DNA from: Haematomicrobium sanguinis DSM 21259 | GTDB lineage: Bacteria > Actinomycetota > Actinomycetes > Actinomycetales > Micrococcaceae | Length of the DNA: 64,000 bases | Assembly (NCBI RefSeq): GCF_000688395.1 | Contig: NZ_JIAG01000002.1 | Coordinates: forward strand, 124,001-188,000 | Direction: 5' to 3' | In this document: piece after piece, positions 41,994 to 58,788 of the stretch | Layout of the letters: every line of letters starts with the position of its first letter | Position numbering within the stretch: the first letter of the stretch is position 1 | Position numbers and translations under genes: made by a program | The notes under the pieces: generated by a model | Database searches by the model: none | Told to the model about the DNA's origin: nothing | Seen by the model: only the letters and a program-made list of their open reading frames with translations

Positions 41994-43490
41994 GACGATC
42001 AGCGTGTTGATCGACTGCGCCAACATGACGGCGGCGGTGAGCCCGTCCCGGAGCTCAAGTTCGGCGATCATGAGTCCGGGTTCGTCCGCGGGTAGTGCGG
42101 CCAGCGTGGCGCCGTTCGGGGCGAGTACCTGGCTAGTGCCGGTGGTGGAGAGGTTGACCACGCTGCGGCCGGTCTCGATGGCGCGCATGCGCGCGAGCGC
42201 AAGCTGTTGCAGGTTCTCATCGGTGCCGCGGAAGTCGGCGTTGTTCGTCTGGAACATGAGCACCTGGGCACCGCTGTTCGCGGCTTCGTGAATGACATCA
42301 TCGAATGCCACGTCGAAGCAGATCGCCAGTCCCACCTCTACGCCGTCGACCTCGATGGCGGGCGTGTCGACGCCGGCGGCGTACTCGCGTTCAAGGAGGT
42401 CTACCAGGCTGGGCACGAGCGCGCCGTAGAGCCACCGGTCGGGCACGTACTCGCCGAAGGGGACGGGATGGCGTTTGGCGTGGGTGGCCATCGGCCCGTT
42501 CGAGGTCCAGAGGAAGGAAGTGTTGTAGACGAGGTGGCCGTCTGCCGCGGCGGCATTGAGCAGGATCGGCGCATCGTATCGGGCGGCTGCATCGTCGAGC
42601 GCGTGAGCGGTGGCCTCGTCGGCGAGGGGATCACTGTCGACGCCGCCCTCGGGCCACAGCACGACGTCGACCTGTTCGTCTTCGAGAGGGGCGGAAGCGG
42701 CGAGCTGCGATTCCAGGACCGCGCCCGGTTCGTGCTCATCGACGTACGCGGCGGGGCCGTTGCCCTGCACAGCGCCCACCCGGATGGTGCCTGCGTGACT
42801 GGTCGGGAACTGCGGCACCAGGACCATCACCGCTGCGAGACCGAGCGCAGGGATCGGCGCCGCCCACGAAGCTAGAGGTGTTCTTGGGCGCTCGGTGGCG
42901 TTACCGCGTGCCGGTTGCGCGCGCACGATCCAACGGAGTGCTTCGATCGCGGCGGCGCACACGGCGACCATCAGGAAGCCCGGGCCGGAGACGCCGACCC
43001 ATGACGCGATCGGCGCGATCGGGCTTTCCGATTGGCTCATCGCCACCCGTCCCCACGGGAATCCGCCGTAGGGCCAGGAGCCCATGATGAGTTCGCGGAT
43101 CGTCCAGGCTCCCGCTACCAGCAGCGGCAGCGCCAGCAGCCGAATCGCGGAGGTGTTGCGCCGGCGCGGCAGCCATCGGTAGGCGAGGGCGATCGGCACC
43201 GTCAGCACAGCCGTGTAGATCGTCAGCGCGCCAGCTAGGGCCACCCACGGGACCCAGCTCAGCGGATGCTCCCCGAGAAACTGCGCCGACCAGGACACGT
43301 GAGGAAACCAGAACGCTGCGCCGAAGACTGTCCCGACCAGCAGCGCCGCCCAGGACCGTCGCCCGATGAGAGTGACCAGGGACAACGTCACCGAGACGAA
43401 CGCCAGCGGCCACCACCCGAGTGAGGGGAACGCCGCATCCATCGCGAGCCCGGCCACGCCGGCAACTGGCATCGCGGCCCACAGCGGCAA
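41844..43490 (-). CDS. lnt: apolipoprotein N-acyltransferase
   Basis: 548 residues. Several N-terminal transmembrane helices precede a nitrilase-type domain with the catalytic Glu (LWPEGGVD), Lys (HAKRHPVPFGEYVPD) and Cys (LAICFDVAFDD). A final helix follows, then a tail of about 35 residues that lies antisense to the methyltransferase gene and is not Lnt-like. It N-acylates lipoproteins at the outer membrane face; a lipoprotein gene lies in the same island. The start is uncertain: TTG 43490 is given, but the frame is open upstream to a GGGAG site near 43560 with no ATG or GTG. It is downstream of thioredoxin on the reverse strand. Confidence 0.88.
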   Translation of the reverse strand: MPLWAAMPVAGVAGLAMDAAFPSLGWWPLAFVSVTLSLVTLIGRRSWAALLVGTVFGAAFWFPHVSWSAQFLGEHPLSWVPWVALAGALTIYTAVLTVPIALAYRWLPRRRNTSAIRLLALPLLVAGAWTIRELIMGSWPYGGFPWGRVAMSQSESPIAPIASWVGVSGPGFLMVAVCAAAIEALRWIVRAQPARGNATERPRTPLASWAAPIPALGLAAVMVLVPQFPTSHAGTIRVGAVQGNGPAAYVDEHEPGAVLESQLAASAPLEDEQVDVVLWPEGGVDSDPLADEATAHALDDAAARYDAPILLNAAAADGHLVYNTSFLWTSNGPMATHAKRHPVPFGEYVPDRWLYGALVPSLVDLLEREYAAGVDTPAIEVDGVEVGLAICFDVAFDDVIHEAANSGAQVLMFQTNNADFRGTDENLQQLALARMRAIETGRSVVNLSTTGTSQVLAPNGATLAALPADEPGLMIAELELRDGLTAAVMLAQSINTLIVSGTLAGFLVLAFLLLRDRASSRHHRVLDSSQRSSIGLHECADAHRRERL

Positions 43491-44013: not shown

Positions 44014-44934
44014 GGCGTGTCTCGTAAAGATTCTTGTGGGAACTGGGAGTGTGGAGGCATGTCACGTTTCCAGCTCCTCTCGGATAATCAATGGGGGATG
44101 ATCGCTGATCTGCTGCCCGGCCCGACGGGCAGGCAGGGCCGCCCGTTCGCTGATGCGCGCACAATGGTCGAGGGCATCATCTACCGGTATCGGTGCGGGA
44201 TCGCGTGGCGTGATCTCCCCGAAGTGTTCGGGCCGTGGCAGACCGTCTGGCGGTGGCATGCCCGGATGGCTCGCGAGGGCAGCTGGGATCTCGTGCAGGC
44301 TCGCCTGCACGAGCACGCCGATCGTGCAGGCCTGATCGACTGGTCGGTGTCGGTGGATTCCACGATCGCTCGCGCGCACCAGCACGCAACGAATGTGGCT
44401 CGGGTAAAAAAGGGATTCATCGAATTACAAGAATCTGCTGATCGAGCCGCTTGATCATGCGATCGGTCGTTCCCGGGGCGGGTTATCAACGAAGACGCAT
44501 CAACTCGTTGACGGGCAGGGCCTGCCGCTCGTGACGATCTGCACGGCCGGTCAGGACGGAGACTCGCCGATGCTGATCCCGCTCATGGAACAGCTTCGTG
44601 TCGGGCGTCGCAACAGGCCCGACGCCCTGTTGGGTGACAAGGCGTACTCATCGCGGGCGAACCGGACCCACCTCAGAGACCGTGGTATCGAGGCAGTGAT
44701 CCCCGAACCTCGCGACCAGCAGGCCAACCGGAAGCGGCGCGGTTCGCGAGGTGGCCGCCCGCCGAGGTTCGATGCTGAGAAGTACCGGGACCGGAACGCG
44801 ATCGAACGAGGCTACTGCCGGTTGAAGCAATGGCGTGGGCTCGCCACCCGGTACGACAAACTCGCGATCGTGTACCGGGCCTCGGTTGTGCTCAATGGTG
44901 TGATTGCCTGGCTCAACTATTTACGAGACACACC
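44014..44934 (+). mobile_element. IS5-family insertion sequence
   Basis: A 921-bp element with terminal inverted repeats (GGCGTGTCTCGTAAA at the left and its partner TTTACGAGACACACC at the right, one mismatch) and direct repeats CTAG at 44010-44013 and 44935-44938. It encodes a DDE transposase in two frames. It lies between thioredoxin and the 3' end of tauE and swaps the last few codons of tauE. Confidence 0.88.
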
Positions 44935-44938
44935 CTAG
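44059..44938 (+). CDS. IS5-family transposase, two frames
   Basis: The first frame (44059-44454) has WSVSVDSTIARAHQHA with the first catalytic Asp. The second (open from 44408) has GDKAYSS (second Asp) and ERGYCRLKQWR (Glu). A run of six A and three G at 44406-44414 lies where the second frame opens, in the +1 frame relative to the first, so a full-length transposase needs a frameshift there, either programmed as in many IS5-family members or mutational. The TAG stop is formed by the flanking CTAG target repeat, not by the element itself. Confidence 0.8.
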
Positions 44939-45750
44939 GCCGAAGGGACAGTTGAGAGCGGTCAGCCGGCAGACGAGGACGAGGACCACCGTGATGAGTC
45001 CGAGGCCTCCGGTGGCGATCGCCCAGGCCGGCGGCAGCTCGATGAGGAGCACGAGCGTTCCGGTGAGCAGGACGAAGATGCCGAAGACCTTCTGGAGGGC
45101 GTCGGCTGGTATGCGTCCTGACAGGCGCGCACCGAGGAGCGCTCCGAGCACGGCCATCGCGGTGACCGCGGCCACGAGGGGCCAGTCGAGGGTCACCGTG
45201 GTCAGGTAGCCGGCGAGTCCGGCGAAGGACTTCATCGCGATCACCAGCAGTGAGGTGCCCACGGCCACCGGCATGCTGAGGCCGCCCAGCAGCACGAGGG
45301 CGGGGACGATGAGGAAGCCGCCGCCGGCGCCGACGATCCCGGTGATGAGGCCGACGACGATGCCTTCGAGCATGGTCCGCAGCATCGGCAGCGAGTGGGC
45401 GCGGCCGGTCCCCGCATCGGCGGTGGGTTGGTCGGTGTCGCGCCTGGGCTTTCTGGTGACCATCGCGATCGCGGTGGCGATCATCATGATCGCGAAGGCC
45501 ACCATCAGCACGGCACCGGGGAGCTGGCCTCCGATGAGTCCTCCGGCGAAGGCGCCCACCATGCCAGCGGCTCCGAAGATGAGCCCGGTGCGCCATCGGA
45601 CTCGACGGTGCCGGGCGTGCACGACGAGGCTGGACAGCGAGGTCACGCCGACGATCAGAAGCGAGGCCGCGATGGCCTCTTTCGGGGGCATGCCTGCGAT
45701 GTAGGTGAGCAGCGGGACGGTCAGGATCGACCCGCCACCGCCGAGCGTCC

Positions 45751-47064: not shown

Positions 47065-47664
47065 TCACAGTTCCCGGGTCGCGACCGGGATGGATGCGAT
47101 CGCGCTCCGTGCGGTGGGGCTGGCCGTGACCTTGTTCCAGGGCATGCGGGAGAGGATGCGGCCCATCAGGCAGGAGCCGGTGAGCGCCGCGACGACGAGC
47201 CCGGCGCTGAGCGCGAACGCGATGAACCGGGACTCCGGCCAGAGGAACTCGGCCACGAGCAGGCTCACCAGGACGATCAGCCCGGCCGTGAACCGCACCT
47301 GGCGCTCGATGTCCCAGCGAGCTGCGCCGCGGACCACCTGGCCGCCAGCGGCTTCGAAGGCGGGCACGCCGCCGGTGAGCACGTTGGCCGTCCGCACGCC
47401 GGCGGCAGCGAGATGCTGCTGGGCCTGGGCGGCGCGGTTGCCGGACTGGCACACCAGCACCGCGCGGTGCCCGAGCCGCTCTGCCAGCTCCGAGGCGTGT
47501 TCGGTCAGCAGCGGCAGCGGGACGTTGTACGAGCCGTGGATATGGAGGGTCTCGAACTCGGCCGGTGACCGCACGTCGATGATCGTGAGGTCGTCGTGGA
47601 GCTGACGCCACTGGGCGAGTTCCTCGGCGGTGATCGTTCGGAGTTCGGCGGAGGGATTGGTCAT
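47065..47664 (-). CDS. rhodanese with DUF2892 membrane domain
   Basis: 199 residues. The N-terminal rhodanese domain carries the active-site loop VCQSGNRAAQAQQHL (catalytic Cys), which holds a persulfide. The C-terminal part has two transmembrane helices in a DUF2892 arrangement (WDIERQVRFTAGLIVLVSLL). Rhodaneses move sulfane sulfur to or from thiosulfate, sulfite and thiols, here at the inner membrane face. It is about 100 bases downstream of the persulfide dioxygenase and upstream of tauE, and probably on the CstR-controlled transcript. Confidence 0.88.
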   Translation of the reverse strand: MTNPSAELRTITAEELAQWRQLHDDLTIIDVRSPAEFETLHIHGSYNVPLPLLTEHASELAERLGHRAVLVCQSGNRAAQAQQHLAAAGVRTANVLTGGVPAFEAAGGQVVRGAARWDIERQVRFTAGLIVLVSLLVAEFLWPESRFIAFALSAGLVVAALTGSCLMGRILSRMPWNKVTASPTARSAIASIPVATREL

Positions 47665-47764: not shown

Positions 47765-49174
47765 TCAGGCCAGTGCGGTCTCGCTGGTGGCCTCCTGCCA
47801 TGCGCGCCAGGCGTTGTAGCTGCCGTCGAGTTCTACGACGTCGTGCCCGGCGCGTCGTAGGGCGCTGGCGGCGACGGTGTTCCGCATCCCGGACTGGCAG
47901 TAGGTCACGATCGTGCCGGAGCGCGGCAGCTCGTCTTGGTGCCAGAGCACGCGCGCGGCGCTGAGCTGTGTGGCGCCGGGGATGTGCCCGGCGGCGTACT
48001 CGCTGCGCTGGCGCACGTCCAGCAGCAGCGCGGCATCGAAACCTGCCAGCTCGGCCGGCTCGATGAGGGGCGGGACGAACAGGGGAAGCCCGTCGATGGT
48101 GGTGACGTAGCCGGCGGTCTGGTCGATGCCGACCCGCAGCAGCCGATCCGCGATCGCCTGGGCGGCGGTCTGGTCGTCGGCCAGCAGAACCAGCGGACGC
48201 GAGTCGGTCTCGGGATCGTAGGCCCAGGCGGCGTAGGTGGCGGTCTTGGGGCCATCGGGGATGTTGAGCGAGCCGGCAACGGTGCCCTGATGGGCCTGCG
48301 CCGGCGGGCGGGTGTCGACGAAGGTGATCTCGTCGGCCTCCAGCCGCCGCGCCACCTCCGCTACGGCCAGCTCTGGCACCGGGCCGCGCTCGCCCAGCAC
48401 AGCGGGACCCTCGCGGTTCTGCTTCTTCATCCTCGCGAAGTAGGCGTGCGCGTCGGGCTGCCCGTCGAGCAGCTCCTCGATGAACCCCTGCTCGTCGTCG
48501 GCAGCCAGGTGACGCGACCACCAGGCGTTCGCGCGTTCGTAGCCGACCGTGGTCGAGGGCAGCGCTCCGAGCGCCTTGCCGCACGCACTGCCGGAGCCGT
48601 GCCCCGGGTGGACCTGGACGTGATCGGGCAAGGTCAGGAACACCTCACGCAAGCTGGTGAACAGTTGCCGCGCGCCCTCGAAGCGGGTGTCGACCCCGCC
48701 CGCGGCCTCGTCCAGCAGGTCGGGGCGGCCCAGGTCCCCGGCGAACACGAAGTCGCCGGAGATGAGGTAGCCGGGCTCGCTGGCGAAGGCGCCGTCGGTG
48801 ACCAGGAACACCAGGTGCTCAGGGGTGTGACCAGGCGTGTGCCGGGCCTGGATCGTGATGTTGCCGATCGTGATCGTGTCGCGGTCGTACAGACGCCGGG
48901 CGTCGAACCCGTACTGCCAGTCCGCGCCGCCCTCGCCGGAGACGTAGACCTCGGCGCCGACCGCCGCAGCCAGCTCGCGGGTCCCGGACAGGTAGTCAGC
49001 GTGGATGTGGGTCTCGGTCACTGCGACGATCCGCATGCCGTGCTTGGCCGCGAGCGCCAGGTAGTCCGCGATGTCGCGGCGCGCGTCGATCACCACCGCC
49101 TCGCCCTTGGCCTGGCAGCCGATGAAGTACCCGGCCTGCGCCAGGTCCTCGTCGTAGATGCGTTCGAGGAGCAC
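47765..49174 (-). CDS. persulfide dioxygenase-rhodanese fusion (CstB-like)
   Basis: 469 residues. The N-terminal metallo-beta-lactamase fold has THIHADYLSG, HTPGHTPEHL, SGDFVFAGDLGRPDLL and HPGHGSGSACG, the iron-binding pattern of ETHE1/CstB persulfide dioxygenases. Two rhodanese domains follow: the first (about 260-350) lacks the active Cys, and the second (about 370-465) has TYCQSGMRN with Cys. It oxidises persulfide to sulfite, and the rhodanese joins sulfite and sulfane sulfur to thiosulfate. Start GTG 49174 is chosen for the GGAAGGA site seven bases upstream. Two CstR-type operators lie just upstream. Confidence 0.9.
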   Translation of the reverse strand: MLLERIYDEDLAQAGYFIGCQAKGEAVVIDARRDIADYLALAAKHGMRIVAVTETHIHADYLSGTRELAAAVGAEVYVSGEGGADWQYGFDARRLYDRDTITIGNITIQARHTPGHTPEHLVFLVTDGAFASEPGYLISGDFVFAGDLGRPDLLDEAAGGVDTRFEGARQLFTSLREVFLTLPDHVQVHPGHGSGSACGKALGALPSTTVGYERANAWWSRHLAADDEQGFIEELLDGQPDAHAYFARMKKQNREGPAVLGERGPVPELAVAEVARRLEADEITFVDTRPPAQAHQGTVAGSLNIPDGPKTATYAAWAYDPETDSRPLVLLADDQTAAQAIADRLLRVGIDQTAGYVTTIDGLPLFVPPLIEPAELAGFDAALLLDVRQRSEYAAGHIPGATQLSAARVLWHQDELPRSGTIVTYCQSGMRNTVAASALRRAGHDVVELDGSYNAWRAWQEATSETALA

Positions 49175-49200: not shown

Positions 49201-49244
49201 ATACCCCTGGGGGTCTTTTTACCGTCTCATACCCCCTGGGGTAT
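49201..49244. promoter_or_regulatory. two CstR/CsoR-type operators
   Basis: ATACCCCTGGGGGTCT (49201-49216) and ATACCCCCTGGGGTAT (49229-49244) are G-rich palindromes of the CsoR/CstR type, placed 27 to 70 bases upstream of the persulfide dioxygenase start. They match the operator at 56888-56903 in front of the operon that carries the repressor. Confidence 0.8.
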
Positions 49245-50483
49245 TTCAAGTCGAGAGTGCGACCCGAGCGCCCCCATACCGGCGGGGCTGGAGGTCGGGG
49301 AGGACTCGTTCAGAGGGGACTCAGCGATCGTCGCCACCAGGTGCCGTCGTTCCTGGAGGAGGAGTGCAGCGCCGTTGATGGTGATGTGGGTGGGCACGAT
49401 GATCGGTCCTTGGCCGTCGGGTTCGTAGGCTTGGGCGACATCGCCGGTGAGGACGTTGTGGACCCGGATCGCTCCGTCCTCTCGCAGGTAGAGGAAGACG
49501 CCGCCGATCGCCGCGATGGTGGTCTCGGCGGCAACAGGCAGGGACCACAGCGGTCGGTCGTCGGTGTCGTAGCCGTGCAGGCCGGTGTCGTCCAGGGTGA
49601 CGAGGGTCCCGGTGGTGGGGTCTACGGCGGCGTCGCGTGCGGTGCTGCTCACGATGCTGCCCTGATCCAGGTCGAGGAGTGCGCCGGTGGTCTCGGAGGT
49701 GGCGATGAGCGCGAGCCCGTCTCCCGGTGCAGGGCGCAGGGACGCGCTGATGGACGCCGCTGTCCAGCCGTGCTCGGCGAGGGGGACGCGCCAGAGCTCG
49801 TGATCGTCGGCCGTGTCGCGCGCGATCAGAGCGTCCTCGTGGGTGAGCAGCACGATGCCGTGGTACTCGCCGATGATGCGGATGCGTTCGGGGCTCGACT
49901 CGTCGGCCGCGACGTCTCCGGTGGTGGGGTCGAGCGCGACGCGTGGGCCGGTCTCGCCCATGAAGCCTTCGGGAGGTGCGGCGAAGACCAGGCCGGGGCC
50001 TTGGTAGGGGCCGGGAACCTCGACCGGGCCCCAGACCTGTTCTCCGGTCGTCAGGTCGTAGGCGGTGGCAGTCGTGGCGGCCAGGGCGTCGGCCGTGGTC
50101 TGGAGGTCGCCCAGGATCGCGAGGGTTCGGCCGTGCGCGTCGGTGGTCACGACGAACCCGGTGCAGCTCGCTGGACGTTGCGCGGCCCACAGCACGTCGC
50201 CGTGGACGTCCACGGCGGTGAACTCCAGCACGCCGTCGTGTTCGCCGGCGGCCAGATACACCCCGTCCGCGTACTGCGGAGTGATGTCCCACCCGGGGTC
50301 CACGACCTCCAGCTCCTCGAATGGCGTCGGCAGCCGCATGCCCGAGGTGTCCACCACGGGTAGCGACCCATCGACCGGGTAGGGGTCTCGGACGGGTTCG
50401 GGCTCGGATGCCCCGCAGCCGGTCACCAGCAGCGCGGCCACGGCGGCGAGGGCAAGGCTGGAGCGTCGCCGGCGCGGCGTCAT
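49227..50483 (-). CDS. PQQ-like beta-propeller lipoprotein
   Basis: 418 residues. The N-terminus has an Arg-rich start, a hydrophobic run and lipobox VTGC with the lipidated Cys at residue 23. The rest shows repeated beta-strand segments of a PQQ/WD40-like propeller (for example LAILGDLQTTADAL, IAAIGGVFLYLREDGAI). The ATG overlaps the stop of the CcdA-like gene, so it ends the DsbA-CcdA-propeller operon. It should sit on the outer face of the membrane, perhaps as a scaffold or chaperone for the DsbA-like protein. Its stop codon touches the CstR operator. Confidence 0.82.
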   Translation of the reverse strand: MTPRRRRSSLALAAVAALLVTGCGASEPEPVRDPYPVDGSLPVVDTSGMRLPTPFEELEVVDPGWDITPQYADGVYLAAGEHDGVLEFTAVDVHGDVLWAAQRPASCTGFVVTTDAHGRTLAILGDLQTTADALAATTATAYDLTTGEQVWGPVEVPGPYQGPGLVFAAPPEGFMGETGPRVALDPTTGDVAADESSPERIRIIGEYHGIVLLTHEDALIARDTADDHELWRVPLAEHGWTAASISASLRPAPGDGLALIATSETTGALLDLDQGSIVSSTARDAAVDPTTGTLVTLDDTGLHGYDTDDRPLWSLPVAAETTIAAIGGVFLYLREDGAIRVHNVLTGDVAQAYEPDGQGPIIVPTHITINGAALLLQERRHLVATIAESPLNESSPTSSPAGMGALGSHSRLEIPQGV

Positions 50484-51349
50484 GACTGTTCCGTGCGGTG
50501 CTCGCCCGCCTGGGCGTCAGCGCGAGCGCGGGTGCGGCGGCGTCTGGCCCAGAGCACGAGCACGATCCCGGCGATGAGGACGACGGCGAGGATGTCCAGG
50601 ATCGGGTTCGCCAGGATCGCGGTGTTCTCCTGGAGCCAGGCCTGGGCGTCGATCGGAACCAGTTCGGGAGCCCCGACCAGGCCGTTGGTGGTCCAGAACA
50701 GCACCCCGACGCCCATGATGAGCAGCCCGGTGACCACCGAGGTGGTGTGCAGCTCCCGGCCCAGCACGGTGAACGCTCGCCCGCGCAGGAACCGGCGTCC
50801 GCGGGCGCCGAGGCGCTGCCAGAGCGCGGCGATCAGCAGTAGCGGCAGCACCATTCCCGCGCCGTACACGGCGAGCATGACGCCGGCGGCGAGGGTGTCG
50901 CCGCCGGCGGCGGCCAGGGTGAGCACGGCGCCCAGGATCGGGCCGGCGCAGAATCCCGCGATGCCGCTGGCAGCGCCCAGCAGCACCGTCTTGACCAGTC
51001 CGGTCTTGGACGCCGCTTGCGCGTGCAGGTCGGCCCCGGCCGGTAGCAGCCGGGCAGGGTCGAACCCGAACCCGAGCGCCTGTGCCGCGCCGAGGACGAC
51101 CAGGACCAGCGAGGCGACGAGCACGATCGCCTGCCGGTGGGTCACGAACAGCGTCCCCAGGGCGCCGGCTCCGACTCCCACGGGGACCAGGACGGTCAGC
51201 AGGCCGACGTAGAACACGGCTCCGTGCAGCAGCAGTCGGGGGCCGGTGCCGATCGTGGAGGCGAAGAACGCCGGCATCAGCAGCGCCGCGCACGGGCTCA
51301 GCAGCGCGAGCGTGCCGCCGGCGAACGCGGCGAGCAGTCCGATGTCCAC
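50480..51349 (-). CDS. CcdA/DsbD-like membrane thiol-disulfide transporter
   Basis: 289 residues with six or more hydrophobic segments. The two redox cysteines of CcdA are present in SPCAALLMP (helix 1) and GFCAGPILG (helix 4). An extra C-terminal helix and basic tail are seen. It carries electrons from cytoplasmic thioredoxin to extracytoplasmic proteins. Start GTG 51349. It lies between the DsbA-like and propeller genes and overlaps the latter. Together with the thioredoxin at 43.6 kb this would form a full electron path. Confidence 0.85.
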   Translation of the reverse strand: MDIGLLAAFAGGTLALLSPCAALLMPAFFASTIGTGPRLLLHGAVFYVGLLTVLVPVGVGAGALGTLFVTHRQAIVLVASLVLVVLGAAQALGFGFDPARLLPAGADLHAQAASKTGLVKTVLLGAASGIAGFCAGPILGAVLTLAAAGGDTLAAGVMLAVYGAGMVLPLLLIAALWQRLGARGRRFLRGRAFTVLGRELHTTSVVTGLLIMGVGVLFWTTNGLVGAPELVPIDAQAWLQENTAILANPILDILAVVLIAGIVLVLWARRRRTRARADAQAGEHRTEQS

Positions 51350-51355
51350 GCGGGG

Positions 51356-52108
51356 TCACTCCGCCGCGTCGAGCGCGGTCTGGAACGCGTCCTCGAAGAT
51401 CTCGGTGGGCTGCGCCCCGACGATCGGCTGTCCGCCCAGGATGAAGATCGGGGTGGAGGTGGCGCCGAGGTCGAATCCGAACTGCTGGTTGGCGGCGATC
51501 ACCTGCGCCGTCTCCTCCGAGCCCAGGTCGGCGGTGAACTGCTCGGTGTCCAAACCGAGTTCGCCGGCCAAGGCGATCAGGGCTTCCTCGCTCAGTTCGC
51601 TCTCGGACCTGCGCTCCCCGTCCTCGAACAGGGCGTCGTGGTACTCCCAGAGCGCCCCCTGGAGGGCGGCGGCGTACGAGGCCCGCGCTGCGCGCTCGGA
51701 CGCGGGACCGAACACGTTGATGTCGCGCCACTCGATCCGCAGGTCACCGGCGTCGACGTGCTCCATCATCGATGGCAGCGTCTGCTCGCTCCACCTGGCG
51801 CAGAACGGGCACTGATAGTCCGAGAACACCACGAGCACTACCGGCGCATCCACGGGCCCGGCAGCGAGCAGGTCCGCCTCGTCCCTGGTCTCGGCCGCAG
51901 ACAGGTCCGGTTGCTCGGGGTTCTGCACCTCCGTCGGCGCGCCGTTATCCGACGGCGAGCCCCCTTCCTCGGCCGTCGTGCCACCCCAGTTCACCGCCAC
52001 GATCACGGCGATCAGGACAGCAGCCAGGGTCAACACGGCGACCGGCACGACCCATGACGACCTCGAACGGTTCGACGGTTTCGGGCGGTTCGTGGTCTCG
52101 GTGGGCAT
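51356..52108 (-). CDS. DsbA-like membrane-anchored thioredoxin-fold protein
   Basis: 250 residues. An N-terminal transmembrane helix (about 18-38) and an acidic Ser/Glu/Pro linker precede the thioredoxin fold with active site CPFC (SDYQCPFCARWSEQT) and a cis-proline loop STPIFILGGQ. DsbA-like proteins of this shape form disulfides in exported actinobacterial proteins. Start ATG 52108 has a GGAGA site. It is the first gene of a reverse operon, divergent from the CPVC/BlaI/M56 operon across the BlaI-type operators. Confidence 0.88.
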   Translation of the reverse strand: MPTETTNRPKPSNRSRSSWVVPVAVLTLAAVLIAVIVAVNWGGTTAEEGGSPSDNGAPTEVQNPEQPDLSAAETRDEADLLAAGPVDAPVVLVVFSDYQCPFCARWSEQTLPSMMEHVDAGDLRIEWRDINVFGPASERAARASYAAALQGALWEYHDALFEDGERRSESELSEEALIALAGELGLDTEQFTADLGSEETAQVIAANQQFGFDLGATSTPIFILGGQPIVGAQPTEIFEDAFQTALDAAE

Positions 52109-52145
52109 AGGGATTCTCCTGTCACTGTCGCGGGCACCGATCTCT

Positions 52146-52177
52146 ACTATCTCAGATAGTCGACTATGCGTGGTAGT
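52146..52177. promoter_or_regulatory. pair of BlaI-type operators
   Basis: ACTATCTCAGATAGT (52146-52160) and ACTATGCGTGGTAGT (52163-52177) are 5-5-5 inverted repeats, 17 bases apart, between the divergent DsbA and CPVC/BlaI/M56 operons. The same pattern appears twice at 57107-57137. The neighbouring blaI gene supplies the likely binding protein. Confidence 0.75.
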
Positions 52178-52191
52178 CGAGTCATGTCAGA

Positions 52192-52794
52192 ATGGGTTCC
52201 ATGACCTCTCCCACGACTCGATCCCGCCAGGGCATCGGTGAAAGCTTCCGGTTGGCGGTCCAGGCGCTTCGAGGGTGGACGGGCCGGCAGGTGCTGGTCG
52301 CGATCGCCGCCTCGGCGGTCGTCGCGGTGGTGATCGGGGTGGCGACGGTGCTGATCCCCAACCCGGTGTTCGGTCGAGACATCCCGCCGGTGTGGTGGAA
52401 CTATCCGGTGTGGCTGGTCACCTCGGTGCTGTCGGGCATGCTGGTCGCCACCTATGTCCGCCCGTACCGCGCCGCCGCGGACAAGCAGCAGGCGAACGTG
52501 GTCAGCGAGGACGGCAGCACCGCCACCGACGCGGCCGATGAGGTGCAGGCGCGGCGCAGCAGTCGGATGGGGATGGCCGGCGGCATCCTGGCGTGGTTCG
52601 CGGTGGGGTGCCCGGTGTGCAACAAGCTGGCGCTGCTGGCGCTGGGGTACTCGGGAGCGATCACCTGGTTCACTCCCGTGCAGCCGTTCCTCGCGCTCGG
52701 CGCGCTGATCCTGACCGGCGTCGCACTGGTGTGGCGACTGCGCGGGCAGGTCGCGTGCCCGGTCCGCCCCGAGCCGGTGGCGGCTGTGCGATGA
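52192..52794 (+). CDS. CPVC-motif membrane protein
   Basis: 200 residues with a cytoplasmic N-terminus, helices at about 30-50, 66-82, 123-141 and 147-170, and a GCPVCNKLALLALGYSG segment in which a C-x2-C pair lies at the start of a helix. Such pairs in membrane proteins often exchange disulfides. Two ATG codons (52192, 52201) are possible, and no good ribosome site is seen, so the mRNA may be leaderless. It overlaps blaI by ATGA and is first of a three-gene operon. I do not recognise a named family; a thiol relay or quinone-linked role is inference. Confidence 0.7.
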   Translation: MGSMTSPTTRSRQGIGESFRLAVQALRGWTGRQVLVAIAASAVVAVVIGVATVLIPNPVFGRDIPPVWWNYPVWLVTSVLSGMLVATYVRPYRAAADKQQANVVSEDGSTATDAADEVQARRSSRMGMAGGILAWFAVGCPVCNKLALLALGYSGAITWFTPVQPFLALGALILTGVALVWRLRGQVACPVRPEPVAAVR

Positions 52795-53180
52795 AGGCCG
52801 CCGATGGGGGCTCGGGCGACCTGCTGCGCCTGGGGGCGCTGGAGGCGCAGGTGATGGACGTGCTGTGGGACCACGGCCCGGCCACCGTCCGCGAAGTGAT
52901 CGAGCACCTGCCCTCCGACCCCGCCTACACCACCATCGCGACCGTGCTCACCAACCTGGATCGCAAGCGCCTGGTGACCATCACGAGGCAGAACCGGTCC
53001 ACCCGGTACGGCGCCAAGATCAGCAGGCACGAGCACGCCGCGGGGCTGATGGAGCAAGTGCTGGAGGCCAGCCGCGACCGGGCCGCCTCGATCCTGCAGT
53101 TCGTGGACTCGATGCCCGAGAACGACCTGGACCTGCTGCGCGACTACCTGGAACGCCGCGACCGGGGAGACATGCCATGA
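52791..53180 (+). CDS. blaI: BlaI/MecI-family transcriptional repressor
   Basis: 129 residues. The winged helix LGALEAQVMDVLWDHGPATVREVIEHLPSDPAYTTIATVLTNLDRKRLV is the BlaI DNA-binding domain; in known members the C-terminal helices (MEQVLEASRDRAAS) dimerise and are cleaved by an M56 protease. It lies between the CPVC gene and the M56 gene, with ATGA overlaps on both sides. It probably represses its own operon, the divergent DsbA operon and the sortase-like gene through the shared palindromes. Confidence 0.9.
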   Translation: MKAADGGSGDLLRLGALEAQVMDVLWDHGPATVREVIEHLPSDPAYTTIATVLTNLDRKRLVTITRQNRSTRYGAKISRHEHAAGLMEQVLEASRDRAASILQFVDSMPENDLDLLRDYLERRDRGDMP

Positions 53181-54160
53181 CCGTGGGCATGCTCACGGTG
53201 GCGCTTTCGGCCGGACTGATCGCGTTGGCGGTGTTCGGGCCGGCTCTGCTGCGGCACGCGGCCCCCGCTCTGGTGCGGGTCCCGCGCCTGGCGATCGTGG
53301 TCGTCGCCGGCGGCATCGGGGTCTGGCTGGTCACGCTGCTGGCGATCGGCCCCGTGCTGGCCTGGGCCGGAGCCGGCCCCGCGCTGCTGCCCGAACGCGC
53401 GGCCGAGGTCTGCCAACGGTGCCTGAGCGCCGCGAACCCGTTCGCCGCCGACACCACCGACACCCTGGTGCCCGCGGTGCTGCTGCTCGCCCTGCCGGTG
53501 GCGCTGGCCCTTGCCCTGGGAGCAGGGCTTGCCCGCCAGATGTCCCGGCGTAGCTCCCGCTCCCGGCACGCCGCCCGCACGCTGCTGCACGGCGCGCGGC
53601 GGCAGCTCCTGCATGGACACGAGGTGGCACTGGTCGACGCCGAGCACCCGTTCGCGCTCACCTTCCCCGCCCGTCACGGCGGGATCGTGCTCTCCACCGG
53701 CGCGGTGCGCGCGCTGGAGCCGGGCGAGCTGGCCGCCGTGCTGGCCCACGAGCACGCCCACCTGCACCAACGCCACCACCTCATCACCGCGCTGGTGGAC
53801 AGCATCGCCGCCTACCTGCGGTGGGTGCCGCTGATCCGCGCTGCCGCCGACGCGCTGCCGCACTACCTGGAGATCGCCGCGGACGACCAGGCCCGCCGTC
53901 ACGCAGGAACCCCGGCGCTGGTCAGCGCCCTGGTCAAGCTCGGCGAACGCACCCACCCCGCCATGCCGCAGCACTCCTGCCCGGTCGCCCTCCACGCCGC
54001 CGGTCCCGAACGCATCCGCCACCTCGTCCACCCCAGCGCCGGGCTGGCAGGCGCCCTGCCCGCCGTCGCGATCGCCGCATATCTGGTCGGCATGGCCGCC
54101 CTTGCCGCCGCCGTCCACCTGCCCTACGTCTCGGCCGCCCTCACCGGCTGCGCCACCTGA
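53177..54160 (+). CDS. M56-type membrane zinc metalloprotease (BlaR1-like, no sensor domain)
   Basis: 327 residues with four or more hydrophobic segments and the zinc site HEHAHLHQRHH (HExxH) around residue 195, followed by an EIAADDQARRHAG third-ligand region. It overlaps blaI. BlaR1-like proteases cleave BlaI on a signal. The C-terminal penicillin-binding sensor domain is absent, so beta-lactam sensing is unlikely; two Cys (VCQRC, about residue 75-78) in the first external loop could sense thiol state. Confidence 0.85.
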   Translation: MTVGMLTVALSAGLIALAVFGPALLRHAAPALVRVPRLAIVVVAGGIGVWLVTLLAIGPVLAWAGAGPALLPERAAEVCQRCLSAANPFAADTTDTLVPAVLLLALPVALALALGAGLARQMSRRSSRSRHAARTLLHGARRQLLHGHEVALVDAEHPFALTFPARHGGIVLSTGAVRALEPGELAAVLAHEHAHLHQRHHLITALVDSIAAYLRWVPLIRAAADALPHYLEIAADDQARRHAGTPALVSALVKLGERTHPAMPQHSCPVALHAAGPERIRHLVHPSAGLAGALPAVAIAAYLVGMAALAAAVHLPYVSAALTGCAT

Positions 54161-54192
54161 CCCCGCCAGAACAAGAGAGAACAACCAAGCCC

Positions 54193-54519
54193 ATGGATGA
54201 GAACCCTCGTGAGGTGATCCTGCACGTGGCCGACGACCCCGCCGACGTGCAACGGGCGCTGGACGCCGCCGCCGGACTCCACGCCGCCGGCCTGGGAGTG
54301 CGGGTGCGGGTCGTCGTCAACGGCCCGGCACTGGCCGGCCTGACCGGCACCGATGCCGTCCAGGTGCCCGAGCACACCGAGGTGGCCGCGTGCAGCGTCG
54401 GGCTCGGACGGCGCGGCATCGACCCCGGCGAGCTGCGACCCGAGGTCGGCACCGTCCCCTCCGCGGTCACCGCGATCGTCCACGCGCAACTGGCCGGCGC
54501 CGCCTACATCCGCATCTGA
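54193..54519 (+). CDS. DsrE/DsrF-like sulfur-relay protein
   Basis: 108 residues. EVILHVADDPADVQRALDAAAGLHAAG and a Cys at VAACSVGL are typical of the DsrE/YchN fold, where the Cys can carry persulfide sulfur. It starts 32 bases after the M56 gene on the same strand and precedes the racemase-like gene. A role in handling sulfane sulfur fits the island. Confidence 0.75.
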   Translation: MDENPREVILHVADDPADVQRALDAAAGLHAAGLGVRVRVVVNGPALAGLTGTDAVQVPEHTEVAACSVGLGRRGIDPGELRPEVGTVPSAVTAIVHAQLAGAAYIRI

Positions 54520-54549
54520 CCGGACCAGAAGGTGGCAGATGGAGCGCCG

Positions 54550-55248
54550 ATGAGGACCATCGGGTTGCTGCACGGGATGAGCAGCGTCGCGACGGTGGAC
54601 TACTACCGCCGGATCAACGACCGCGTGAACGAGCTGCGTGGCGGGCATGAGCGAGCCGAGCTGGTGCTGTCCAGCGTGAACTTCGGCGTCATCGAACGAT
54701 GCGTGCGCGCCGAAGCCTGGGATGAGGCCGGACAGTATCTGGCAGGCAAAGCCCGGGGCCTGCAGCGGGCGGGAGCGGACTTCATCGCCTGCGGGAGCAA
54801 CACCATGCACCGGGTCGCGCCCGTCATCGAGGCGGCGATCACCGTCCCGTTCCTGCACATCGCCGATGTGGTCGCGACCGCAGCGACCGACCTCGGGGTG
54901 ACCCGGCTGGGACTGCTCGGCACCGCGCCGACGATGGAACAGGACTTCTACCGGGGAAGACTCGAGCGAGCGGGCTTCACTGTGCTGACCCCGGAGCCCG
55001 TCGACCGGGCCACGGTCGATCAGATCATCTTCGACGAGCTGACCAGACACGTGTTCCGGCCAGAGTCTCGGGAGACCTACATCCGGGTCATGACAGACCT
55101 CCACGCGGCCGGGGCCGAGGCGATCGTGCTCGGATGCACCGAGATCATCCTCTTGGTCGGCCCCGACGACGTGCCGGGACTGCCGCTGCTGGACTCGACC
55201 ACGCTGCACGTCGAAGCCACCGTCCAGACCGCGATGTCCCGCGGCTAA
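54550..55248 (+). CDS. aspartate/glutamate racemase-family protein
   Basis: 232 residues with two-domain racemase blocks: GLLHGMSS at the start and the second catalytic Cys in VLGCTEI. At the first catalytic site the usual C-N-T-x-H is S-N-T-M-H (ACGSNTMH), so Ser stands in for Cys; a Cys is two residues earlier. Some family members use Thr here and still racemise slowly, from memory. It follows the DsrE-like gene on the same strand. Substrate unknown; amino-acid racemase or a decayed relative are both possible. Confidence 0.8.
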   Translation: MRTIGLLHGMSSVATVDYYRRINDRVNELRGGHERAELVLSSVNFGVIERCVRAEAWDEAGQYLAGKARGLQRAGADFIACGSNTMHRVAPVIEAAITVPFLHIADVVATAATDLGVTRLGLLGTAPTMEQDFYRGRLERAGFTVLTPEPVDRATVDQIIFDELTRHVFRPESRETYIRVMTDLHAAGAEAIVLGCTEIILLVGPDDVPGLPLLDSTTLHVEATVQTAMSRG

Positions 55249-55287
55249 GCCGCCCCACAGCGGGTCCGCCGCGCCGGGACGAGCCGG

Positions 55288-55941
55288 TCACCGGCGCTGG
55301 AGGAGAAGCACCCCGTCGGTCAGCTCGGCGGCCTCGCCGGAGGGTGCGGTGGCGTGTCGGGTGTGCGTCTGGATGCTCAAGACGAGCCAGTCGTGCTCGT
55401 TGAGGTTCAGCTCCACGAACTGTCGTGCCGGGCTGGGAAAGCTGTGCGCGGGATGATCCGCGGCGTCGACCCAGGGTGGGGGTGCGGCGTGGGAGAGGAC
55501 CACGAGGTGACCGCCGGCGCGCACCGCGGTGGCTGCGCGTTGCAGGATCGCGATGCGCGGGAGCGGGACAGGCGAGTGCAGGAAGCTGGCGGTCACCAGA
55601 TCGTAGGGGCCGTCGTCCGGCTCCCACCGTGCCAGGTCGGCGGTGACGAACCGGGTGGCCGCGCTGGCCTGTTGACGCTGAGCCTCGCGGCGTGCGCGCG
55701 CGGTCGCGGTGGCGGAGATGTCCACGCCGGTGACGATCCAGCCCTGGGTGGCGAGCCAGATCGCGTCGGCGCCCTCCCCGCACCCCAAATCCAGCGCTTT
55801 CCCCGGAGCCAAGTGCTGCACAGCGTGGACCAGGCTAGGGTTCGGGCGGCCCGACCACACGCGCTCGGCGTCCCGGTAGCGGCCCTCCCAGAACTCCTGA
55901 GGATTCTGAGAGGGCGAGTCGTGGCGCGTGGCGCCTGTCAT
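55288..55941 (-). CDS. class I SAM-dependent methyltransferase
   Basis: 217 residues. ALDLGCGEGADAIWLA is motif I, followed by VTGVDISATAT and a DLVTASFLHSPV post-motif. The family includes TehB-like and thiopurine/thiol methyltransferases that methylate small soft nucleophiles. ATG overlaps the stop of the small Cys-rich gene, so it ends the CstR-controlled operon. Methylation of a sulfur or metalloid compound is a reasonable inference; no substrate residues can be named. Confidence 0.85.
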   Translation of the reverse strand: MTGATRHDSPSQNPQEFWEGRYRDAERVWSGRPNPSLVHAVQHLAPGKALDLGCGEGADAIWLATQGWIVTGVDISATATARARREAQRQQASAATRFVTADLARWEPDDGPYDLVTASFLHSPVPLPRIAILQRAATAVRAGGHLVVLSHAAPPPWVDAADHPAHSFPSPARQFVELNLNEHDWLVLSIQTHTRHATAPSGEAAELTDGVLLLQRR

Positions 55942-56114
55942 CGTCCGAACAGGCGGGCGAAGAACCCGCCCGTCGCGGGTGCCTTCTCCTTCTCCTTGTC
56001 GTGTCCGGGGCACCACTGGCCCGCCGGCACGGTGCGCTTGACCTCGGCGATGTGCTGGCCGCAGCCGGCCCAGGTGGTCTTGCCGCAGGTCTTACAGGTC
56101 ACAGCTCGGCACAT
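55938..56114 (-). CDS. 58-residue Cys-rich zinc-knuckle protein
   Basis: A short gene easily missed. Its 58 residues start MCRAVTCKTCGKTTWAGCG and end in a basic FFARLFGR. Two Cys-x2-Cys/His sites (CKTCG, CPGH) could hold one zinc or react with sulfane sulfur. The stop overlaps the methyltransferase ATG (ATGA) and it follows the CstR gene, so it is a member of that operon. Similar small proteins occur widely in actinobacteria; function unknown. Confidence 0.75.
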   Translation of the reverse strand: MCRAVTCKTCGKTTWAGCGQHIAEVKRTVPAGQWCPGHDKEKEKAPATGGFFARLFGR

Positions 56115-56168
56115 GGATTGCTTCTTCCTTCGAGGGCTGTCTGTCGGTTGGTCGTGAGGATCGCTCGT

Positions 56169-56444
56169 TCAGGCGAGCGTGAGGAACAGCTTCTCCAGCT
56201 CCTCGGTGGTGATGTCGTCGGCACGGTTGGTGCCGTCGGGGTCGGCGATGCAGTCCTTCATCGCGGTGGAGATGATCGCGAACCCGGCACGGTCAAGCGC
56301 CGAGGAGACCGCCGCGAGCTGGGTCACCACCTCCCGGCACGACCCGCCGCCTTCGACCGCGTCAATGACGGCGTTGAGCTGGCCGCGGGCGCGGCGGAGC
56401 CGGTTGAGGATGCGGCGCTGGGCGTCGGGGTCACTCGTGGACAT
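56169..56444 (-). CDS. cstR: CstR-type persulfide-sensing repressor (CsoR/DUF156 family)
   Basis: 91 residues of the CsoR/RcnR fold (RRILNRLRRARGQLNAVIDAV). Cys36 and Cys65 are present, but the copper ligand His61 of CsoR is Ala here. This Cys-Cys, no-His set is that of CstR, which forms di- to tetrasulfide bridges in response to reactive sulfur. It overlaps the DUF2892 gene upstream by 14 bases. Its G-rich operators lie at 56888-56903 and before the persulfide dioxygenase. There is no copper ATPase or copper chaperone nearby. Confidence 0.9.
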   Translation of the reverse strand: MSTSDPDAQRRILNRLRRARGQLNAVIDAVEGGGSCREVVTQLAAVSSALDRAGFAIISTAMKDCIADPDGTNRADDITTEELEKLFLTLA

Positions 56445-56751
56445 GAGAACTCCTGTTCGGGACGGGGGCGCTCGTCAGGTCGACGTGCTGCCGGGCATCG
56501 GGGATGTCGAGTGTGTGCTGCGGCGTCTGAGACTGCCGACCAGTGGTGAGCCAGTTCGTCGGGCATGTTCCCGTGACCGCCATGACCGCGATGACGGCGG
56601 CCATCACGCCGGCGACTACCGCGATCGCCGGGTCCGTCGACAGCATGGACGCACCGAACGAGCCGACGATCAGGGCGACGGCTCCACGGCTCAGCCGCGC
56701 CCATACGCCGGCGCGGCATGCCGGGGCGCAGGTGAGCTGTTGGTCAGACAT
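56431..56751 (-). CDS. DUF2892-family small membrane protein
   Basis: 106 residues with two hydrophobic segments (about residues 18-48), then a GTCP Cys-Pro motif and a hydrophilic tail. DUF2892 domains are fused to rhodaneses or lie beside them in sulfur-detoxification loci, including the rhodanese at 47 kb. It has a strong GGAGGAG site. Overlaps with cstR downstream and a small open frame upstream mark it as early in the operon under the operator at 56888. Confidence 0.8.
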   Translation of the reverse strand: MSDQQLTCAPACRAGVWARLSRGAVALIVGSFGASMLSTDPAIAVVAGVMAAVIAVMAVTGTCPTNWLTTGRQSQTPQHTLDIPDARQHVDLTSAPVPNRSSHVHE

Positions 56752-56878
56752 AGGCGAAACTCCTCCGACGGTCAGGAACGCCGTCGAGCGGGTGGTCGGC
56801 CCAAAGGCCCAGGATCAGCACCGAGCTCTCCTCGACCACCCGGGTCGGGTTCTCTCGCCTGATCTCGGTCGCACCCAT
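56744..56878 (-). CDS. possible 44-codon leader gene behind the CstR operator
   Basis: A 44-codon open frame begins ten bases after the CstR operator and ends eight bases inside the DUF2892 gene, so the latter's ribosome site lies within it. The ATG has no ribosome site, and the transcript may be near leaderless. It could be a leader peptide coupling translation to the operon, or chance. Confidence 0.35.
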   Translation of the reverse strand: MGATEIRRENPTRVVEESSVLILGLWADHPLDGVPDRRRSFAYV

Positions 56879-56887
56879 GACTCCAAC

Positions 56888-56903
56888 ATACCCCCGGGGG
56901 TAT
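56888..56903. promoter_or_regulatory. CstR operator of the cstR operon
   Basis: ATACCCCCGGGGGTAT is a perfect 16-bp palindrome, matching the two operators at 49.2 kb. Its place upstream of the DUF2892-cstR-small protein-methyltransferase operon indicates autoregulation. Confidence 0.85.
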
Positions 56904-57106
56904 CTCGATCTCAACTCTTGTCATCGCAGCGTCGCGAACGAGGTCTCCGCGACAGAGGCAAGCGGACTCTCCGCAGGGTTGTGCAGCGCCCGCCGATCGC
57001 TCCTCACGCAGCCCACTCCTCTCGGGCCGTGTAGGCCGCAGAGGTCACGGGCCGGCCGGGAGGCGGCTACCTCACGGCGGCCGGCGAAGACCGGCTGAAC
57101 CATACG

Positions 57107-57137
57107 ACTATGCTAGATAGTAACTATGATGGATAGT
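57107..57137. promoter_or_regulatory. pair of BlaI-type operators before the sortase-like gene
   Basis: ACTATGCTAGATAGT (57107-57121) and ACTATGATGGATAGT (57123-57137) are perfect 5-5-5 inverted repeats, 16 bases apart. A -10-like TATGAT (57125-57130) lies inside the second, so binding would block the promoter. The same arrangement controls the BlaI operon at 52.15 kb. Confidence 0.78.
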
Positions 57138-57179
57138 CGAGCATGAGCTTTGGTCGACGCGCGGAACGGGGTTCGGAGC

Positions 57180-57728
57180 ATGCGGGAGACAGTCGGACGG
57201 AGCAAGCAGCCGCCGCGGCGCTGGCATGGGACCCTCGGCGCGGCGGCGGGGACGGTCCTCGTCCTCGCTGGCGGGGCGGTGCTGGTAGGCCTTCTCGCCG
57301 CGCCGGAGCGGGTCGAGTATGTGTACGGGACGGTGAAGACGGCGGTGACGGGAAGCATCCATGCCGCGCGGGAGGACGCGTTCGGAGACCTGCCCACCGT
57401 GGACTTGGGCGCCACGGGTGGCGTGCACGAACTAGACGGCTGCGACGGAACGTTCACGGAGATGAGTTCCTACGAGCGGGAGGGTGTTCCGCCGGTATGG
57501 GCAGCCCACAACAACTGTCAAGGCGACGTCCTGCTCCCCTGGGAGATAGGCCAACGGGTGCAGGTCGAGGGCAGCGATCAGGTGTATGAAGTGGTTGATA
57601 TCCGCCACACGCCAAAGACCTGGGCGACCACCGACGACCTGCTTGGCCTCGACGGTTCATTCGCCTTGCAGACATGCTTCTACGGCGAGGACCGGATGAA
57701 GTTCGTTGGGCTCGAACCGGTCGATTAG
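57180..57728 (+). CDS. sortase-like membrane-anchored protein
   Basis: 182 residues. A transmembrane helix at about residues 17-40 precedes an external domain with the sortase order: WAAHNN (His), then VQVEGSDQVYEVVDI, and late FALQTCFYGEDRMKFVGLEPV (catalytic Cys in a QTC motif, with Arg after it). Sortases join surface proteins to peptidoglycan or pilins. It is forward, 43 bases after the BlaI-type operators, and is the first gene right of the CstR operon. No LPxTG-type substrate was noticed in the island. ATG 57180 is preferred; TTG 57150 is an alternative. Confidence 0.7.
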   Translation: MRETVGRSKQPPRRWHGTLGAAAGTVLVLAGGAVLVGLLAAPERVEYVYGTVKTAVTGSIHAAREDAFGDLPTVDLGATGGVHELDGCDGTFTEMSSYEREGVPPVWAAHNNCQGDVLLPWEIGQRVQVEGSDQVYEVVDIRHTPKTWATTDDLLGLDGSFALQTCFYGEDRMKFVGLEPVD

Positions 57729-57735
57729 TCGCGGG

Positions 57736-58788
57736 ATGGTCGAGACCCGCCCGTCGCGCAGTCCTCAGCGCGGTCCGTCTGGTGCCCGCGAAAGAGGTGG
57801 TCAGGAATCCCATCCCAGGAATGCGGTTGATGAGCCCGAATCGGTCGCCGCGTCGAACCAACACGAGTCCTGCAGTCTCCGCGGTTTCGCGCCCATCCTC
57901 GCCCGGAACCGCATCATCGTCCAGCCGGTCGGGCCGTTGGCCTACGACTGCGTTCAGGTCATCGTCGTTCGCGATGGAAGCGCCATCCTGTTTAGCGAGT
58001 TCAAGCAGAAGTTGGTCAAGTTTGGGGACGTGATTCTCCTGGGGGCCAACACACTGCTTGGGGGTGAACCCGAGGGTCGTGCAACTGTGACGACGGTCTA
58101 TCTCGATACCGACTACTTGATCGACCAGATTTTCTGGCAACACGTCGGCATATTACGGGACCGCCTCGACGCGCAGTGCTTTGCCGAGACTATGTATGCC
58201 GAGCCTGCGCAGGTACTTCATATCGGCGAAGATCGAGCGAGAATGCTGATGCCGCGTCTCGATGAGCTGGTTGCTCTCAGTATCGATGGCCGATTCGCGG
58301 AGAACTTCAATCGAATGCAGGCATTGTGGTTCAGCATCGCTCATGTCGTGACTCCCTTTATCAAAACCTCACCGATCCGTACATCCCCGACGCAGCGCGC
58401 GACCGCGATACCCTCGCTACCTCGTGTTCGTCGGTTTGCGCCGTTGCGCACAGAAGCGCGCAAGGTCGCTGAACTCTTACGGACGGACCCGGCGCGGCGT
58501 TGGTCCGTGTCGGAATTGGCAGATGAAGTACATCTGTCGAAGTCACAGGTCAACCGCATCTTCGTTGAGGCGTACGGGAAGTCACCGATCGCTTACCTGA
58601 CCATGCAGCGAGCCGAGCGGATGGCGCATCTTCTACGCACGACGTCCCGCTCTGTTGCGGCGATCGCTCAGGAGGTGGGCTGGAGCGATCCTGACTTCGC
58701 CGCTCGCCAGTTCCGCCGCGGCGTCGGCCTTACTCCCAGCGACTACCGGACGATGCATCGGGTGACGTCCACGCAAGCGGCCGGGTGA
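57736..58788 (+). CDS. AraC-family transcriptional regulator
   Basis: 350 residues. The C-terminal 100 have a double helix-turn-helix (WSVSELADEVHLSKSQVNRIFVE and RSVAAIAQEVGWSDPDFAARQFRR). The N-terminal cupin-like part (RNRIIVQPVGPLAYDCVQVIVVRDGSAIL) would bind a ligand. The first 45 or so residues are low-complexity, and the true start is uncertain. It follows the sortase-like gene and precedes the element backbone, and may regulate transfer or replication genes. Confidence 0.8.
   Translation: MVETRPSRSPQRGPSGARERGGQESHPRNAVDEPESVAASNQHESCSLRGFAPILARNRIIVQPVGPLAYDCVQVIVVRDGSAILFSEFKQKLVKFGDVILLGANTLLGGEPEGRATVTTVYLDTDYLIDQIFWQHVGILRDRLDAQCFAETMYAEPAQVLHIGEDRARMLMPRLDELVALSIDGRFAENFNRMQALWFSIAHVVTPFIKTSPIRTSPTQRATAIPSLPRVRRFAPLRTEARKVAELLRTDPARRWSVSELADEVHLSKSQVNRIFVEAYGKSPIAYLTMQRAERMAHLLRTTSRSVAAIAQEVGWSDPDFAARQFRRGVGLTPSDYRTMHRVTSTQAAG

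Follow-up and report, generated by a model that had tools for sequence, protein, structure and literature searches.

Which signal does a BlaI-type repressor answer when its partner M56 protease carries no beta-lactam sensor and the genes divergent from it belong to thiol-disulfide chemistry? The question is raised by a 64,000-nucleotide stretch of Haematomicrobium sanguinis DSM 21259 (contig NZ_JIAG01000002.1, positions 124,001 to 188,000), here called the window, whose own numbering is used throughout. We consider it reasonably probable that the window carries a BlaI/M56 regulon for extracytoplasmic thiol-disulfide chemistry, located on a conjugative element and with thiol-reactive stress as its signal. 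A preliminary description of the same DNA had pointed to the palindrome ACTAT-N5-ATAGT in two closely similar tandem pairs, one between the divergent dsbA-ccdA-lipoprotein and cpvC-blaI-M56 operons and the other at a sortase-like gene, and had proposed that the switch answers a thiol or sulfur signal rather than beta-lactams.

Operators and gene content of the module

In the whole window the exact palindrome was found at 52146-52160, 57107-57121 and 57123-57137, and a fourth copy, ACTATGCGTGGTAGT, with one mismatch at 52163-52177. Dinucleotide shuffles of the window contained no exact copy, the 2.93 Mb genome has exact copies at the three window sites and nowhere else, and its one-mismatch sites outside the window occur at about the level of the reversed control. 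Pair 1 (52146-52177; ACTATCTCAGATAGT-CG-ACTATGCGTGGTAGT, 17-bp step) lies, as had been claimed, between the start of dsbA at 52108 on the minus strand and that of cpvC at 52192 on the plus strand. Pair 2 (57107-57137; ACTATGCTAGATAGT-A-ACTATGATGGATAGT, 16-bp step) precedes the sortase-like gene and araC and ends 43 bp short of the start codon (ATG at 57180) of the sortase-like open reading frame. The four sites and the similarity of the two pairs thus hold, with the small corrections that one copy is imperfect and that the two pairs differ in register. When the region was scanned for sigma-70 promoters, a single promoter-like match turned up over pair 1, on the minus strand, but nothing at pair 2; this result was not used as evidence.

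On the minus strand, dsbA (51356-52108) encodes a DsbA-family protein with an N-terminal membrane anchor and a thioredoxin fold with the CxxC motif CPFC (C100, C103; PF01323, E 1.4e-18), which matches DsbA chains in the PDB. It is followed by ccdA (50480-51349), for a CcdA/DsbD-type membrane electron carrier with two cysteines (C20, C134; PF02683 DsbD_TM/CcdA, 8.3e-12), and by a lipoprotein gene (49227-50483) with PQQ/BamB-like repeats (PF13360, 7e-7). On the plus strand, cpvC (52192-52794) encodes a CPVC membrane protein (C140, C143, C189), blaI (52791-53180) a BlaI/MecI/CopY-family repressor with the recognition helix TTIATVLTNL and a Penicillinase_R winged-helix domain (PF03965, E 5.7e-27, 94.8 bits against a cut-off of 22.6), and the third gene (53177-54160) the M56 protease. 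A small dsrE-like gene (54193-54519, plus strand; PF02635, E 0.0036, below cut-off) stands downstream. DsbA and CcdA were also compared with the NCBIfam models for thioredoxin-like (seleno)proteins (NF041057, TsoB), and both matches, including the NF041057/DsbG-like match of DsbA, stayed below cut-off.

This arrangement recurs in relatives. A BlaI scan of GTDB genomes gave 36 loci, 35 of them with the module of dsbA, ccdA, cpvC, blaI and M56 and with ACTAT palindromes by dsbA/cpvC; the lipoprotein gene is sometimes present, and a few genes are missing or fall at contig ends. Six near-identical copies of the element are found in Microbacterium, Cellulosimicrobium, Nocardia, Microlunatus and Thermocrispum, which points to recent transfer, whereas the remaining loci, from Micrococcales, Nocardia, Brevibacterium, Nonomuraea and a Nitriliruptor-group genome, have BlaI identities of about 54 to 88%. 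Of 197 family genomes 6 show the two-site pattern, and of 396 phylum genomes 2 do, the window's own genome being counted in both; the reversed control never shows it. The 33 genomes with this BlaI (two of which are probably one and the same) hold 75 exact single sites against 10 for the reversed pattern, and genome-wide these exact sites mark the thiol locus.

Since a scan with BlaI is biased towards close relatives, 395 class genomes were also searched for CPVC, which gave 43 positives, and 40 regions were examined. Among the combined loci, not all of them independent, the operator [AT]CTAT-N5-ATAG[AT] stands near dsbA or cpvC in 49 of the 49 with dsbA, cpvC and blaI, and in none of the six with dsbA and cpvC but without blaI. 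Loci without dsbA or without cpvC were siteless in 28 cases, and the three that do have a site all have blaI. The expected recurrence of palindrome and gene set in related elements was therefore borne out, and relatives that keep blaI and M56 without palindromes near dsbA were looked for and did not occur. In 70 pooled sites from 32 loci, ACTA and TAGT are invariant within the motif GACTAT-S-NNN-S-ATAGTC, and the step is 17 bp in 30 of 34 site pairs.

The operators stay with their target genes after rearrangement. At three loci (L023, L034, L042) dsbA-ccdA is arranged in another way and still has its own sites, and a second dsbA/lipoprotein copy in Promicromonospora (L028), next to what we take, from our reading of the sequence, to be a CoA-disulfide reductase-rhodanese-like gene, has its own operator pair. 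In Gulosibacter (L090:5575-6828) a lipoprotein gene related to that of the module is displaced by 47 kb and preceded, 25 bp before its ATG, by the sole exact site besides those of the module.

The regulator of the sites and the second operator pair

We found that seven loci of one family have TCTAT-N5-ATAGA-type sites at the same position, some imperfect or mixed. The BlaI recognition helix reads TTISTV or TTVSTV in this TCTAT branch, against TTIATV in the ACTAT group. This covariation of operator and helix, in two groups that are also clades, is the best in silico evidence that BlaI may be the protein that reads the sites. By position, dyad operators lie at the promoters of blaI's own operon and of the target operon in all 49 loci, and from this conservation BlaI very probably acts through them on dsbA and cpvC. 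A BlaI/M56 switch over thiol-disulfide genes, as had been proposed, is thus supported by the contrast between the loci with and without blaI and by the helix covariation.

The palindromes might instead belong to a different regulator of the locus, BlaI being merely adjacent, as genes for AraC and CstR regulators lie nearby. We hold this to be extremely improbable. Neither the AraC homologues (31-70% identical) at 22 other loci of the order nor three further ones from plasmids are accompanied by an ACTAT site, even in relaxed form, CstR has GC-rich boxes of its own, and blaI is the sole constant regulator across the 49 operator loci, with a helix that covaries with the operators. Both AraC and CstR were accordingly rejected as binders of ACTAT. 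Similar AraC proteins were also seen on an E. coli plasmid bearing sul2 (pN56338-1; L097, 5620-6564), where a 58% identical homologue is beside a major facilitator superfamily (MFS) transporter, and on a Salmonella plasmid.

What pair 2 controls is a separate matter. It is followed by the sortase-like open reading frame (57180-57728, plus strand), then by araC (57706-58788, plus strand; PF12833), whose true start is probably downstream of 57706, and then by ardC. The first of these encodes a membrane-anchored, element-specific protein with three conserved cysteines (C88, C113, C166) and H110, which could be a DsbA client. Its identity as a sortase is weakly supported: the window protein has no sequence match in Pfam (including PF04203), NCBIfam or the PDB, its homologue at L209 reaches PF04203 at E 0.004, below cut-off, a profile built from five sequences retrieved no sortase from the PDB, and the single-sequence structure model is poor (pLDDT 53). 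H110 and C166 are invariant in the five homologues, but the arginine column is not fixed.

As a general member of the regulon the sortase-like gene had to be given up. It is limited to near-identical copies of this element, a 63% identical homologue elsewhere has no palindrome, and in a Brevibacterium casei element where no sortase was detected an exact pair stands about 125-140 bp before araC. The conserved target would then be araC, or both genes. Since ardC comes after araC in 8 of the 11 relatives that were inspected, araC is taken as part of the conjugative backbone, and we infer from two elements that BlaI may have captured a backbone regulator in those that carry the module. It is also quite possible, though we lean away from it, that pair 2 merely arose when cargo was inserted, as a copy of the cpvC promoter with no regulatory role, which would leave the sortase-like protein and AraC outside the regulon. 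The element-specific gene, the 16-bp rather than 17-bp step, and the Thermocrispum copy without pair 2 are in line with that idea, while the B. casei element speaks against it, since the pair precedes araC there with both sites exact despite an AraC only 55% identical to that of the window.

In the Thermocrispum municipale copy of the element (L015:7428-8100) the pair 2 region is missing and the sortase-like gene is truncated, and in other elements (L221, L222) CsoR-like genes immediately precede araC. The position of these CsoR-like genes suggests that cargo is repeatedly inserted at the point before araC-ardC.

Signal, sensor and the sulfur island

In the mechanism that we propose, BlaI dimers would bind the two tandem operators in the dsbA-cpvC intergenic region and so hold down the two divergent operons, blaI and the M56 gene among them, and at pair 2 would also repress the element-specific sortase-like/araC operon. 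Thiol-reactive stress in the envelope, most likely persulfide or polysulfide and possibly a soft metal, would activate M56, with the extracellular C79xxC82 and C325 as its input, and BlaI would be inactivated, presumably by proteolysis. Upon derepression the cell would produce the lipoprotein, DsbA, CcdA and the MerT-like CPVC protein, which would jointly carry electrons and thiol-bound cargo through the membrane.

The M56 protein has the protease motif HEHAH and several hydrophobic segments; it matches M56 at 2.9e-6 and 27.1 bits, below the 31-bit cut-off, and M48 at 1.1e-7, over cut-off. With 327 residues it ends just after its last hydrophobic segment, and Pfam shows no penicillin-binding sensor domain in it, in agreement with the preliminary description. 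Among 54 aligned M56 proteins C79 is present in 38 of 38 from the ACTAT group (one locus counted twice) and in none of the other 16, while C82 is found in all 54 and C325 in 50; many M56/M48-like proteins from 40 class genomes lack all three cysteines. From hydropathy, C79 and C82 are predicted to lie in an extracellular loop, ahead of the helix preceding the protease domain, while C325 belongs to the tail. In BlaR1, which is N-out/C-out, the signalling loop is EL1, between helices 2 and 3 (PMC9834060). The C79/C82 loop would correspond to it, so that a thiol-disulfide input to M56 is plausible. In this sense, we tentatively put forward, while thinking it somewhat unlikely, that the sensorless M56 proteins of this group are direct thiol/disulfide receptors, in which C79xxC82 would exchange disulfides with C325 (or with DsbA/CPVC) and thereby gate the proteolysis of BlaI. 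If true, DsbA, CcdA and CPVC would be response and feedback at once.

The nature of the signal is approached through the neighbours. Near the module, cstR (56169-56444, minus strand; PF02583) encodes a CsoR/CstR-family repressor with a CsoR fold, a cysteine pair and no visible histidine ligand, hence CstR-like, for which persulfide sensing is predicted. An exact GC-rich CsoR/CstR-type box, ATACCCCCGGGGGTAT, lies upstream of the cstR genes (56888-56903), and two more (49201-49244) upstream of a gene for an MBL-fold protein with two rhodanese domains, persulfide dioxygenase-like (47765-49174, minus strand; PF00753, PF00581). A rhodanese with a YgaP-like transmembrane part (47065-47664, minus strand), a member of the TauE/SafE sulfur-anion exporter family (44921-45691, minus strand) and a thioredoxin complete the sulfur island. 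Given its CstR, persulfide-dioxygenase and rhodanese genes, a thiol or sulfur signal is favoured, and it is moderately supported. Elsewhere, CstR or MBL/rhodanese genes were found within about 5 kb at 10 of 40 class-wide CPVC loci (a raw count), a Streptomyces plasmid has cpvC-dsbA-ccdA beside CstR-like/rhodanese genes and no blaI, and on an Arthrobacter plasmid blaI and an ACTAT pair accompany rhodanese/TauE genes. In vitro, polysulfides act as oxidants of DsbA and of protein thiols (PMC11921322).

Several points weigh against this interpretation. The assignment of the sites to BlaI rather than to another factor is built on correlation, the CxxC of M56 could be a clade marker, as the TCTAT branch, whose M56 has no C79, controls the same genes, and the sulfur neighbours in the window belong in part to a separate CstR regulon. 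Moreover, the inducer may be a metal, because copper genes accompany related sets of cpvC, BlaI and M56. The locus would then be a copper or soft-metal switch in which DsbA and CcdA mend envelope thiols that the metal (copper, mercury or similar) has oxidised, while the metal itself is dealt with by the MerT-like CPVC protein.

We read the CPVC protein as a MerT-like membrane thiol carrier, probably a remote relative of MerT, a kinship that speaks for the metal reading. Its CPVC motif and C-terminal cysteine are invariant in the aligned group, one haloarchaeal relative having CPIC instead. A CPVC profile, which included distant relatives picked by their similarity to CPVC and not to MerT, aligned with five MerT sequences at 92% hhalign probability over 71 columns. 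PF02411 (MerT) matches one of 11 family members at 9e-4 and not the window protein, a Pfam search for MerT in relatives gave nothing over cut-off, and the AlphaFold2 model (pLDDT 75) has no clear PDB match. The similarity covers about 70 residues of the C-terminal half, with one cysteine of the CxxC near the vicinal pair of MerT and the C-terminal cysteine near MerT C76; unlike MerT, the CPVC protein has CxxC in place of a vicinal Cys-Cys in the first helix, extra N-terminal helices, and no MerA or MerP neighbours.

A metal signal finds further company in a Mycolicibacterium CPVC-TlpA-BlaI-M56 set beside a multicopper oxidase, in Natrinema, where CPVC has SCO, copper-binding and CcdA genes in its vicinity, in an Amycolatopsis contig with ACTAT sites near CopA-like ATPases and BlaI/M56, and in a weak match of BlaI to the CopY/TcrY model. 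Yet the island in the window holds no metal ATPase, MerA, MerP or multicopper oxidase, most of its neighbours are sulfur genes, and the vicinal cysteines of MerT are absent, so we regard a metal switch as unlikely and a sulfur or thiol signal as about twice as probable as a metal one. The contig of Amycolatopsis palatopharyngis (C63; L091, L210, L211) is an observation in its own right: over 65 kb it carries six exact ACTAT-N5-ATAGT sites together with copper ATPases and with DUF305-like and CPVC-like proteins, and its BlaI has a different type of recognition helix. The ACTAT operator thus apparently also serves a BlaI regulon for copper.

It may also be asked whether the locus responds to beta-lactams or to stress on the cell wall, in the manner of mycobacterial BlaI/Rv1845c, the thiol genes being accessory targets. 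Mycobacterium tuberculosis also has BlaI with a sensorless M56, and the way in which a signal reaches that M56 is described as unclear (PMC9834060). We consider this very unlikely here, as neither Pfam annotation of the window nor the related loci show a gene for a beta-lactamase or penicillin-binding protein (PBP) in the operons with operators, genome-wide the sites single out the thiol locus, and M56 is without the penicillin-binding domain. A regulon for envelope thiol-disulfide chemistry is therefore the reading that we retain.

That the module rides on a putative conjugative element, as the preliminary description held for a mobile element, is supported by a tyrosine integrase (34975-36117, minus strand) and a TrwC (MOBF) relaxase (36910-40779, minus strand) in the window and by a TraG/type IV secretion system (T4SS) coupling protein downstream of it. 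The CsoR/CstR-type boxes flank the island, a separate CstR sulfur regulon being interleaved with that of BlaI. The element also has an apolipoprotein N-acyltransferase gene (41844-43490), perhaps connected with the lipoprotein of the module.

Comparison with known systems

In the open-licence literature we found no described system that joins BlaI with DsbA/CcdA/M56, with copper or with persulfide, and no link of M. tuberculosis BlaI to dsbA or cpvC. Sensorless M56 proteins beside BlaI recur in actinobacteria, as the loci from the BlaI and CPVC scans show, and the present module is a test case for what they detect: a small regulon with sharp, conserved operators, a chemically coherent output and three mutable candidate sensor cysteines. 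A code for the specificity of BlaI proteins can be read from the pairs of operator and recognition helix, and a first functional context is gained for the MerT-like CPVC family.

The CstR/CsoR persulfide regulons (persulfide dioxygenase, rhodanese, TauE) share with the module the same island and the sulfur theme, with GC-rich boxes of their own, whereas their thiol sensor is cytosolic and their operator different, and the ACTAT pairs are not explained by CstR. With M. tuberculosis BlaI (Rv1846c) and M56 (Rv1845c) the module shares an actinobacterial BlaI and an M56 partner without sensor domain. The targets reported for M. tuberculosis BlaI include blaC and ATP-synthase-linked genes. One of the latter is Rv1303 (PMC12565901). 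The staphylococcal bla/mec divergon (BlaI/BlaR1, MecI/MecR1) shares with the module a winged-helix BlaI repressor, dyad operators in a divergent promoter region, an adjacent M56 membrane protease and, here by position only, an autoregulated operon. The module works like the bla divergon, but it differs at the two ends of the pathway: in place of a penicillin-binding sensor domain it has a CxxC in an extracellular loop, and in place of a beta-lactamase or PBP2a its targets are DsbA, CcdA, a lipoprotein and a MerT-like protein.

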